Source: Bacteroidota bacterium
Lineage (GTDB): Bacteria > Bacteroidota > Ignavibacteria > Kapaibacteriales > UBA961
Length of the DNA: 64,000 nucleotides
Direction: 5' to 3'
NCBI GenBank assembly: GCA_018266765.1
Contig: JAFDZU010000013.1
Location: 1 to 64,000 of the forward strand
Below, piece after piece: positions 1,273 through 47,261 of this stretch. Each line of letters starts with the position of its first letter. Positions within the stretch are counted from its first letter, which is position 1. Under the pieces are notes generated by a model. It was not told the DNA's origin, made no database searches, and saw nothing but the letters and a program-made list of their open reading frames with translations. The position numbers and the translations under genes were made by a program.

Positions 1273-1320
1273 TTGTAAAAAATTGTCATATTTTTTACAA
1301 ATTCAATTATTTAATTGAAT
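1273..1320. repeat. Two further perfect inverted repeats upstream of PBP2
   Basis: Arms TTGTAAAAAAT (1273-1283) and ATTTTTTACAA (1290-1300) are perfect 11-base complements with a six-base loop. Directly after them, ATTCAATTA (1301-1309) and TAATTGAAT (1312-1320) form a perfect 9-base dyad with a two-base centre. Both are AT-only or nearly so. They could be part of a composite terminator or protein-binding dyads in the PBP2 promoter region; the sequence alone does not decide. Confidence 0.6.
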
Positions 1321-1437
1321 TACGGTAGTTAATCTTTGAATTCTTCCTTTTATACTAAGTTATTCATTCTTATTTTTGTACCAGTAATAAGGAGACAAAT
1401 TCCTTGCTCTTTCACCCAAATTATTAAATTTAACTTC

Positions 1438-3285
1438 ATGAGACAAACATTAGGAATAGATTCAGATTTTGGAAATCTGATTCGTAGAAATATTTTTAGG
1501 GCAATTAGCTTTATTATTTTAAGCTTGTTTATCGTGCGGCTTGGATATTTACAAATTGTTCAAGGGAATATATATCGTCTAAAAGCTGAAACACAAGCTA
1601 TTAAACAAATAATGATAGACCCTTTCCGTGGGAATATTTATGACCGAAACGGAGAAATTATCGTTCATAATGCTCCGGCTTTTTCTGTAACCATTACTCC
1701 CAGTGAATTTCGTGTCGAAGCTATTCCTTTGCTTGCATCAATTCTACAGGTTGATACCGCAGAAATACGTCAAGCATACGAAGAATCTAAATTACTTTCA
1801 CGAGTGAAACCGAATAAAATATACCGAGATGCAGATTTTAAAACACTTGCTTCTCTTGAAGAAAATCATGATTTATTACCCGGAGTTGATATAGTTGTTG
1901 AATTTAAACGGCTCTATGAATCTTCCGCTAATATGGCTCATTCGTTAGGTTACACTCGGCAAATATCAGAAAGTCAACTGAAAACAATGGGTGATTATTA
2001 TTCACCTGGAGATATTGTTGGTTATTCTGGAATGGAACGAACGTATGAGAATTATCTTCGAGGTGCAAAAGGGGTGCAAATGGTTGCAGTAAACGCAACA
2101 GGACAAAAAGTAGCAAGTTTTCAAGAAGGTAGAAATGATGTTTTACCCGAAGAAGGGTTTGATTTACATTTAGGAATTGACAAAGGAATGCAAGAGCTTG
2201 CAGAAAAATTACTTTCGGGTAGGTCGGGTGCAATCGTTGCTTTAGATCCAAATAACGGAGAATTGATTGCATTTGCAAGCAAACCCGATTTCGATCTTCG
2301 TGATTTTAGCGGAAGAACCCCGGGAAATGTTTACGGAAAACTTCTCAAAGATGAATCAAAACCACTGTATAACCGAGCAACATTAGCGGCATATCCACCG
2401 GGTTCAACTTGGAAAATGCTTATGGCAGCCGCTTGTCTTCAAGAAGGAATTATCACTCCAAAATATACATTTACTTGCACCGGTGGGTACACTTTCGGAG
2501 GACGGACGTGGAAATGTCATGGTGGAAAAGCTCATGGTGTTGTCAATGCACAACGTGCAATTCATGTTTCTTGTAATGCTTTCTTTAATTCAATGGGACC
2601 AAAATTAGGTATTGATAATTTTACAAAGTATGGAAGAATGTTTGGATTTGGTGAAAAAACATATATTGATATTTCTGAAGATAACTCAGGTTTGCTACCT
2701 TCTTTGAATTATTATAAACGGCATGGATTAGGTGAACGTGAAATTGACGGTAGATTAGTTAACTTAGGGATTGGGCAAGGTGAATTATTAGTAACTCCAA
2801 CTCAAATGGCTGTTTACTGTGCTGCTCTTGCTAATGGTGGAACAATTTATCAGCCACATTTTGTAAATTCTATTTTTAACAGAAAAACAAAAAAAATGGA
2901 GACTATTCCGTTTGCTAATCGAACGGTTAAAGTAAACCCTGAAATTTTTTCTTTGATTCAAAATGCAATGTATGAAGTTGTGAATGTCCCCGGTGGAACT
3001 GCGTTAGCCGCTAGAGTGGATGGAGTTAATGTCTGCGGAAAAACCGGAACAGCCCAAAATCCTCATGGCAATGATCACGCATGGTTTATTTGTTTTGCAC
3101 CGAAAGAAAAACCTCGGATTGCAATGTGCGTGATGGTAGAAAATGCTGGGTTAGGTGGCGCAATATCTGCACCTATAGCTCAAAAAATGCTACAAAAATT
3201 CTTTTATCCTCAATCTGATTCTACAAAATTGAGAATTGATTCAACAACATTAAAAGAAGCAATTGCACAAGGGACGCATGATTAA
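1438..3285 (+). CDS. mrdA: Penicillin-binding protein 2 (peptidoglycan transpeptidase)
   Basis: A 615-residue class B PBP, an inner-membrane DD-transpeptidase that cross-links peptidoglycan during cell elongation. A short cytoplasmic tail is followed by one membrane anchor (about residues 20-38). The pedestal/dimerisation domain begins at DPFRGNIYDRNGEII. In the transpeptidase domain all three active-site motifs are visible: S323-T-W-K326, S378-C-N380 and K535-T-G. I chose the ATG at 1438; the frame can be extended to a TTG at 1336, but the added 34 residues resemble no PBP2 amino terminus. The usual partners (mreC, mreD, rodA) are not next to it. The stop codon overlaps the start of the following lipoprotein gene by 8 bases, suggesting translational coupling. 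Confidence 0.95.
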   Translation: MRQTLGIDSDFGNLIRRNIFRAISFIILSLFIVRLGYLQIVQGNIYRLKAETQAIKQIMIDPFRGNIYDRNGEIIVHNAPAFSVTITPSEFRVEAIPLLASILQVDTAEIRQAYEESKLLSRVKPNKIYRDADFKTLASLEENHDLLPGVDIVVEFKRLYESSANMAHSLGYTRQISESQLKTMGDYYSPGDIVGYSGMERTYENYLRGAKGVQMVAVNATGQKVASFQEGRNDVLPEEGFDLHLGIDKGMQELAEKLLSGRSGAIVALDPNNGELIAFASKPDFDLRDFSGRTPGNVYGKLLKDESKPLYNRATLAAYPPGSTWKMLMAAACLQEGIITPKYTFTCTGGYTFGGRTWKCHGGKAHGVVNAQRAIHVSCNAFFNSMGPKLGIDNFTKYGRMFGFGEKTYIDISEDNSGLLPSLNYYKRHGLGEREIDGRLVNLGIGQGELLVTPTQMAVYCAALANGGTIYQPHFVNSIFNRKTKKMETIPFANRTVKVNPEIFSLIQNAMYEVVNVPGGTALAARVDGVNVCGKTGTAQNPHGNDHAWFICFAPKEKPRIAMCVMVENAGLGGAISAPIAQKMLQKFFYPQSDSTKLRIDSTTLKEAIAQGTHD

Positions 3286-45865: not shown

Positions 45866-45885
45866 GACTCATGAGCCAAGGAAAT
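45866..45885 (-). repeat. Inverted copy of the 21-bp minisatellite unit
   Basis: GACTCATGAGCCAAGGAAA is the reverse complement of one repeat unit with a single mismatch (unit core TTTCCTTGGCTCATCAGT). It lies five bases before the tandem array, in opposite orientation, so array and edge can fold into a long hairpin. Confidence 0.75.
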
Positions 45886-46032
45886 TCAAGTTTCCTTAGC
45901 TCATCAGTTAGTTTCTTTGGCTCATCAGTCAGTTTCCTTAGCTCATCAGTTAGTTTCCTTAGCTCATCAGTCAGTTTCCTTGGCTCATCAGTCAGTTTCC
46001 TTAGCTCATCAGTCAGTTTCCTTGGCTCATAA
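45871..46032 (+). other. Possible 53-residue ORF across the minisatellite (doubtful)
   Basis: ATG at 45871 opens a frame that reads through six repeat units as a Ser/Phe heptad (FLSSSVS) and stops at TAA 46030-46032. There is no ribosome binding site and the composition follows from the DNA repeat, so translation is doubtful. Confidence 0.15.
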
Positions 46033-46099
46033 GTTAGTTTCCTTAGTTCATCAGTCAGTTTTCTTGACTCATAAGTTAGTTTCCTTGGCTCAAAAGTTC
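45890..46099. repeat. 21-bp tandem repeat (minisatellite), ten units
   Basis: Ten head-to-tail units of exactly 21 bases with consensus GTTTCCTTAGCTCATCAGT plus CA or TA; the tenth is diverged. Variation is confined to a few positions (A/G at base 9, C/T near the end, CATCAG/CATAAG). Because 21 is divisible by three, each frame gives a heptapeptide; the array is more likely non-coding. It follows the DUF1501 stop by 100 bases. No spacer of differing sequence separates the units, so it is not a CRISPR array. Confidence 0.95.
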
Positions 46100-46161: not shown

Positions 46162-46252
46162 TTTTAAGTCCTCCCAGTTGTTACAACTGACCTTAACAAA
46201 TTGCTAAATAAGGGCTTACAGTGAAAGTCGGTTGTAACAACCGACTTGACTT
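46162..46252 (+). repeat. Paired-palindrome repeat element, copy 1
   Basis: A ~91-base element containing two dyads. The first (around 46171-46193, core CAGTTGTTACAACTG) is partly degraded; the second (46226-46248) has perfect arms AAGTCGGTTGT and ACAACCGACTT around one base. Between them is ACAAATTGCTAAATAAGGGC and a short tail. A second direct copy lies at 46999-47090. Confidence 0.85.
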
Positions 46253-46292
46253 CAAAAAATGCTTTGACGGGGAATAAATTGCCTCTTATATT

Positions 46293-46864
46293 TTACAGAT
46301 TTGTAAGGTCTGGCTTTTCATTGTAAATTTTCATGCGGAACACTGTACTTTCCTTATTCACCAAATTATCTGAGGAGTACGAAAGCTCATCTGAATTAAA
46401 TATGCAGTTAATGGATGTTTCTATTCTTTTAGAATTCAATTGTTTCTTTTCTATTATAATTGTTTTTACCCAAATATCTCCCAAACGTTGATTCCTATCA
46501 GTATATTTAATTGTCAATATCCCAATTAAACCTAATGGAAACATATCAATTGGGTCAAGTAAATGCCTCTTTATGGATTGCTTAAACGAAAGTTCGCCTT
46601 TAGTATGTGTTAAAGATTTTGGTTTTAGTTTTACAATTGAGTTTCCTAATGTGGCACCAAACAAGAATTCAAATAGTATTGTAAATATAAACCAAAAAAG
46701 AATTGGAACAAGAGAAAGAATTCCGGGAAAAGAATAACTTCCTTCTTCATTTTGCTCACCAAATGTATATAAAAATACATAGTAAAAAGTCAGATTATTG
46801 AATAGTCAATCAATCCAGCTAAAAAACGTTTTCCAAGATTTGATTTTGCAAGATTATTTTCCAT
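46293..46864 (-). pseudogene. RDD-family membrane protein gene, frameshifted
   Basis: The gene begins at ATG 46864 with MENNLAKSNLGKRFLAGLID and continues YSII into TGA at 46790-46792. The sequence then continues in another frame: TFYYVFLYTFGEQNEEGSYS, membrane stretches LVPILFWFIFTILFEFLFGA, and NQRLGDIWVKT, the RDD carboxy-terminal signature, ending at 46293. Adding one base just before the stop restores a ~190-residue RDD protein with a typical start (RFLAGLIDY) and end. The uninterrupted 3' piece alone (46664-46293) lacks the first helix. The lesion is either a real inactivating deletion or a sequencing/assembly error. The gene is flanked by the paired-palindrome repeats. Confidence 0.85.
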
Positions 46865-46998
46865 TTATCATCTTAATTTTTGGTCGGTTGTTATTACCGA
46901 ACTCCTTCATATTATTTAATTTGAATATTGTTGAAAGCTGGATTCAATAACTGCTTTAATGGATTATCTGCCGTTTGAAAGATTTTTTATAGTGTGTA

Positions 46999-47090
46999 TT
47001 TTAAGTCAGGTCAGTTGTTACAACTGACCTTAATAAATTGCTAAATAAGGGCTTACAGTGAAAGTCGGTTGTAACAACCAACTTGACTTT
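46999..47090 (+). repeat. Paired-palindrome repeat element, copy 2
   Basis: Direct copy of 46162-46252 with only about seven differences. Here the first dyad is perfect: arms AGGTCAGTTGT (47008-47018) and ACAACTGACCT (47020-47030) around one T. The second dyad has one mismatch. Each copy keeps one perfect dyad, and the AAATTGCTAAATAAGGGC spacer is identical in both. Confidence 0.85.
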
Positions 47091-47208
47091 AATTTAATTA
47101 TCTTGTTCCTTGGGTTGATTTTTGCTCTACTATATTACAGACCTTATCAAAAAAAAGGAGGAATTCCGTCAAGCAGATTTCTCCTTCTTTTTCTAACAAA
47201 TTCCACAT

Positions 47209-47244
47209 AAAAGCCGTTTCTATTTTACCTTAGAAACGGCTTTT
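47209..47244 (-). terminator. Terminator of gcvP
   Basis: Arms AAAAGCCGTTTCTA and TAGAAACGGCTTTT are perfect complements around an eight-base loop. It lies 18 bases past the gcvP stop codon on the minus strand. Confidence 0.88.
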
Positions 47245-47261
47245 ATTATCTCAAGTTATAA

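Follow-up and report, generated by a model that had tools for sequence, protein, structure and literature searches.

Two direct copies of a REPIN-like element lie in the 64-kb stretch of DNA that was analysed (the window), at positions 46162–46255 and 46999–47092 of the plus strand. Both were delimited by repeat detection and genome-wide matches, and copy 1 also by alignment. They are 94 nt long, 93% identical and spaced by 837 nt, in agreement with the first-pass annotation, which had described direct copies of about 92 bases at this distance. Homology does not extend beyond these 94 nt, and the sequences between and around the copies are unrelated. Each copy consists, in order, of hairpin A on the plus strand, a linker, and hairpin B on the minus strand. 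The core of hairpin A, GTTGTTACAAC, occurs at 46177 and 47014, and that of hairpin B, GTTGTAACAAC, at 46231 and 47068, so that the two dyads with related cores claimed for each copy are found in both. Since the two cores are reverse-complementary, the unit is an inverted doublet. In copy 1, hairpin A (46172–46192, plus strand) has a degenerated outer stem (TCCCAGTTGTTACAACTGACC) and, as read from the sequence, a 5′ tag AGTC at 46167–46170, and hairpin B (46225–46247, minus strand) is a perfect 23-nt palindrome with its 5′ tag AGTC on the minus strand at 46248–46251. In copy 2, hairpin A (47008–47030, plus strand) is the perfect 23-nt dyad, with AGTC read at 47004–47007, and hairpin B (47062–47084, minus strand) has one mismatch, with AGTC on the minus strand at 47085–47088. 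The retention of one perfect dyad per copy had been recognized before, as had the identical spacer, AAATTGCTAAATAAGGGC, which occurs exactly twice in the window. A degenerate third dyad, also reported at that stage, is present upstream of the RDD gene start as a hairpin without a 5′ tag (GGTCGGTTGTTATTACCGAAC; 46882–46902, plus strand), a possible remnant of another element copy. Allowing one mismatch, 8 dyad cores are found in the 64 kb against 1.33 expected; none of 100 shuffles gave as many. A strand of copy 2 can also fold as a single long hairpin (−17.7 kcal/mol, z −4.5). Between a DUF1501 gene and copy 1, about 10 head-to-tail 21-bp units (TTAGCTCATCAGTCAGTTTCC-like) occupy 45880–46098.

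The gene between the copies does encode an RDD-family protein, as annotated at first, and lies outside the element as a passenger. Its C-terminal part (46293–46664, minus strand) matches PF06271 with E=2e-7. The whole gene extends over 46293–46870 with a frame break upstream of 46664, the N-terminal part being in another frame, which reflects either a pseudogene or an assembly error. The earlier suggestion of a mobile cassette or recombination unit, made up of the RDD gene and the two copies, would accord with direct copies flanking a gene absent from both congeners (G001 and G002), in which the neighbours of gcvP also differ. Yet the gene, with its broken frame, has a single copy in the window's own genome (G000), the congeners yielded no homologue, and among 30 relatives a match was found in G019 alone (40% identity). 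The element, on the other hand, is present without the RDD gene at dozens of sites, and the homology ends with the 94 nt. Nothing suggests that the RDD block travels as a cassette, and this reading is very improbable. The direct copies beside the RDD gene could nevertheless recombine and delete it.

The element belongs to a dispersed family. In its own genome (3.71 Mb, 106 contigs) 72 BLAST matches were obtained, including seven near-full pairs, and, with at most two mismatches allowed, the dyad pattern occurs 55 times per strand while the reversed pattern, used as a control, gives 0. The genome-wide search thus returned the opposite of a lack of further copies, the outcome that would have spoken against a repeated element. 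Copies on contigs C86 and C80 share 98% identity across 106 nt and have unrelated adjoining flanks, indicating that the copying was fairly recent. Among 40 relatives only the two congeners have many copies, and a genome of another family in the same order (G025) has a single dyad locus. The dyad is also expanded in a further metagenome-assembled genome (MAG), G041, and is almost absent elsewhere. Nearly all matches in an exact 19-mer scan of GTDB contigs fall in the Ignavibacteria-type MAG sets JANJUO01 (that is, G041), CALMMI01 and JACPWH01, and the element was not found in the phage, plasmid and viral collections searched. Some other sequences adjoin the hairpins of G000. Recurring RHS/YD-type gene fragments do so at loci L066, L067, L063 and L064, some stopping at the hairpin. 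At the contig end of C86 (L057, 130–370) a truncated IS110-type transposase C-terminus, below the PF02371 cut-off, abuts an element copy.

The anatomy of the single hairpin was examined by choosing hairpins on the 11-nt core alone (at most one mismatch) and scoring the outer, unselected positions. At 202 distinct sites, positions d1–d5 pair in 81–90%; as related copies have common ancestry, not every one of these pairings counts as a separate event. Compared with within-genome shuffles, the excess is clearest at d1 (0.90 against 0.46±0.04), d3 (above the expected 0.71±0.02) and d5 (0.81 against 0.39±0.03, all four Watson-Crick types being present at d5), and pairing ends at d6. Beyond the stem, 196 of 225 hairpins have GT at d9–d8 on the 5′ side, as read on the TTA-centred strand, and 13 of 225 have it at the mirrored position. 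Each hairpin has an unpaired one-sided 5′ tag, a covarying perfect stem of 9–10 bp and a TTA loop. An unpaired tetranucleotide on one side of a short palindromic hairpin with many intergenic copies is the layout of REP sequences. The tag differs by genome: G000 has AGTC or CGTC, followed mostly by A, C or T, both congeners have GTCA, and G041 has GTTC; in a tally of 65 hairpins, 28 carry AGTC, 15 CGTC and 4 TGTC on the 5′ side. The GTAG (or GGAG) of typical REPs is not the tag of this family.

Alternatively, the palindrome may be a fixed regulatory or structural signal, such as a transcription terminator, an mRNA hairpin or a protein-binding site, multiplied for its function. The hairpins are strong and mainly intergenic: in the G000 stretches examined, 4 of 53 overlap ORFs though 80% of the bases are coding, and the surrounding gene pairs are convergent in 12 cases and divergent in 3. 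But REP families in general lie downstream of genes (PMC3733652), and no T-run follows the stems, none of which was called as an intrinsic terminator. Moreover, gcvP has its own terminator-like inverted repeat at 47207–47246, which is also found 3′ of gcvP in relatives. On the TTA strand, G-U mismatches are not favoured over A-C ones (27 against 42); Rfam gave sub-threshold chance matches only. The stem bases vary with pairing kept, unlike those of a site read as sequence by a protein. A fixed regulatory or structural role is improbable.

The repeated unit is a pair of inverted hairpins with the tags outward and a constant spacing in each genome, as in REPINs. The spacing is 54 nt in G000, 45 nt in the two congeners and about 31 nt in G041; G041 and G001 also contain arrays in which such hairpins alternate. 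Comparison of the congeners indicates that such units have moved. An element of G002 (contig C184) begins directly 3′ of a stop codon, and the orthologous position of G001 (contig C23) has 29 unaligned nt in place of 198, a near-empty site of the kind that the first-pass annotation had proposed to look for in relatives. Similarly, 3′ of gcvP an element lies between acetyltransferase genes and the next gene in G002, and G001 has the same gene order and no element. The flanks are too diverged for the insertion junctions to be defined to the base.

A rival reading is a classical MITE, derived by deletion from a DDE insertion sequence and moved via terminal inverted repeats (AAGTCARGTCRGTTG...). 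As a whole, the unit forms an imperfect inverted repeat, non-coding and within the MITE range of 70–300 bp, and many pairs in G001 and G002 are enclosed in longer palindromic units with arms GTTGTTTACCRCCGTGCATTGANNNGTTATAAA, the outer arms reading GTTGTTTACCRCCGTGCATTGA...TTATAAA. These arms, however, pair only 100–190 nt apart, and no long element bounded by them was seen. What is conserved is not a plain terminal repeat but a hairpin, self-complementary and with a one-sided tag. No target-site duplication was recognisable in the alignments, in which the diverged flanks limit the comparison, and the first set of loci held no recurrent transposase ORF beside the hairpins. The gene flanked by these hairpins in G025, described below, encodes a RAYT (REP-associated tyrosine transposase) and not a DDE enzyme. 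The argument that no RAYT exists anywhere, and that the element is hence a MITE, was dropped on the evidence of this locus. A MITE is unlikely. Of the two classes offered at first sight, REP/BIME or MITE, the former is borne out by the dispersed, intergenic, tagged inverted pair and by the RAYT of G025, and the latter is kept as a rival.

The first-pass annotation had proposed to search for a RAYT/Y1 or other transposase with matching ends; a RAYT of this description was found in a related genome. A PF01797 search detected no Y1/RAYT gene in G000 even at E≤10, a result that is not final, with contigs ending at these repeats, and yet is meaningful, since the G025-like RAYT reaches 33.8 bits with this model and weaker genes of G002 and G041 were recovered. 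In G025, locus L134 encodes at 1310–1855 (minus strand) a 181-aa protein (P0001) that scores 81.9 bits with NCBIfam NF047646, REP_Tyr_transpos (REP-associated tyrosine transposase), at a cut-off of 80, and matches Pfam PF01797 (Y1_Tnp) at 4e-8. Hairpins lie on both sides in inverted orientation: AGTCAGGTGTTACACCTGACT (1280–1300, plus strand) is 9 nt past the stop codon and GGTCAGTTGTTACAACTGACC (1913–1933, minus strand) is 57 nt ahead of the start, each with the AGTC tag at the same offset. The latter hairpin with its tag is identical to hairpin A of window copy 2 over 27 nt (E=3.8e-7). The only dyad locus in this genome proved to be a REPtron. This arrangement of a RAYT between two inverted REPs was not found in G000 or the congeners, and the link to a RAYT depends on a single locus, whose genome has hardly any other copies of the hairpin.

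Other candidate sources and mobilisers were rejected. The Y1 genes of G001 (L045) and G041 (L116), which matched strongly, are IS200-like and have other flanking repeats and none of these dyads. The RAYT-like genes of G002 (L117) and G041 (L118) are flanked by their own, different palindromes. The former (contig C80, 1092–1866) lies between AAACCTTGAAGGTTTTCGAAAACCTTCAAGGTTT palindromes; the latter (contig C261, 880–1952) is bordered on either side by its own REP (AGATGTGCCACACC..GGTGTGGCACATCT), which apparently recurs inside the reading frame. A 56-aa tblastn match at L228 falls in a frame without an ORF, antisense to a 527-aa gene. IS110 is represented by one truncated fragment only, that beside the C86 copy, and the recurrent ORFs beside dyads reflect just chance sharing of common domains and the RHS-type fragments.

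The 94-nt repeats are probably short non-autonomous mobile DNA of the REPIN type, for which a RAYT acting in trans is the most likely mechanism. In the established model for REPs, the RAYT, a single-tyrosine (Y1) enzyme of the HUH type, binds to the tag and to the folded single strand, next to which it cuts and joins (PMC8266576), and the doublet has been proposed as the moving unit (PMC3116915). The substrate layout, the dispersal, the presence or absence at orthologous sites and one RAYT with matching ends lead us to infer the same mechanism here. A RAYT would act in trans on the folded single-stranded element, cut next to it and paste it elsewhere, mostly between genes. Judging from sequence comparison, the RAYT still carried by the related genome probably moves this element family. 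A G025-type RAYT may then have moved the copies in the window's genus, and the window genome would either have lost it since or carry it in an assembly gap. The REPIN population of G000, with its non-GTAG tag, is apparently an orphan one that lacks a RAYT.

The type, REP/REPIN, is known; the family itself, with its different tag, is new. As in the REPINs and BIMEs associated with RAYTs (Bertels and Rainey 2011, PMC3116915; Nunvar 2010, PMC2817692), tagged hairpins form inverted intergenic doublets of fixed spacing and alternating arrays, compensatory changes occur in the stems, and inverted copies flank a RAYT, here in a related genome. In contrast, the tag is GTC or GTTC rather than GTAG, and no RAYT was detected in the genomes holding the populations. 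GTAG is not absolute, the tag of REPs being "most often GTAG" (PMC8266576). The perfect-palindrome REPs of S. maltophilia share the perfect stem and the 3-nt loop, but have GTAG directly at the foot of an 8-bp stem (PMC8266576). The G025 protein resembles TnpA-Y1 subclass 2.6, or RAYT group 5, of the REPtrons of Bacteroidetes, in its length (subclass median 179 aa), in the Y motif YIHNNP with downstream SS, and in that these genes are flanked by "atypical secondary structures" with copies elsewhere (PMC6006769). Its HUH motif is SHIH and theirs NH[LIV]H, and the subclass was assigned by motif only.

A tag of CGTC characterizes REPs reported from Chlorobi and Bacteroidetes, which were said to have no dedicated transposase (Di Nocera 2013, PMC3733652). 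They resemble the present hairpins in forming inverted dimers, in occupying convergent and unidirectional gaps, and in the tag itself, CGTC being present in 15 of the 65 tallied hairpins. Such REPs have a stem of 8–9 bp with A-T at positions 1–2, a loop of 4–5 nt and a CCA tail, whereas in the present family the tag stands two bases from the stem, the loop is 3 nt, and there are neither A-T pairs at the stem foot nor a CCA tail; a RAYT with such hairpins also exists, in G025. It is possible, but rather doubtful, that the [A/C]GTC hairpins branch off within the CGTC-tagged REPs, the G025 locus being a RAYT of the group 5 type dedicated to such tags. If so, the switch from GTCA to GTTC between genomes would represent co-evolution of tag and RAYT, and the populations in the window's genus would persist after loss of the RAYT.

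These observations add a REP/REPIN family with a non-GTAG tag in uncultured Ignavibacteria and connect this type of tag with a RAYT gene of the same order. P0001, together with the hairpins on either side of its gene, makes a concrete pair for asking how RAYTs read alternative tags, and the related genomes are a set in which REPIN populations seem to exist without the transposase.

The arms GTTGTTTACCRCCGTGCATTGANNNGTTATAAA also enclose other palindromes, including that of the RAYT-like gene of G002 itself. At L195, L206, L208 and L200 of G001 and G002, palindromic units with these arms have differing interiors. The units resemble sites at which several REP families land, or carriers of these, and long target palindromes containing other REPs have been reported (PMC3733652).
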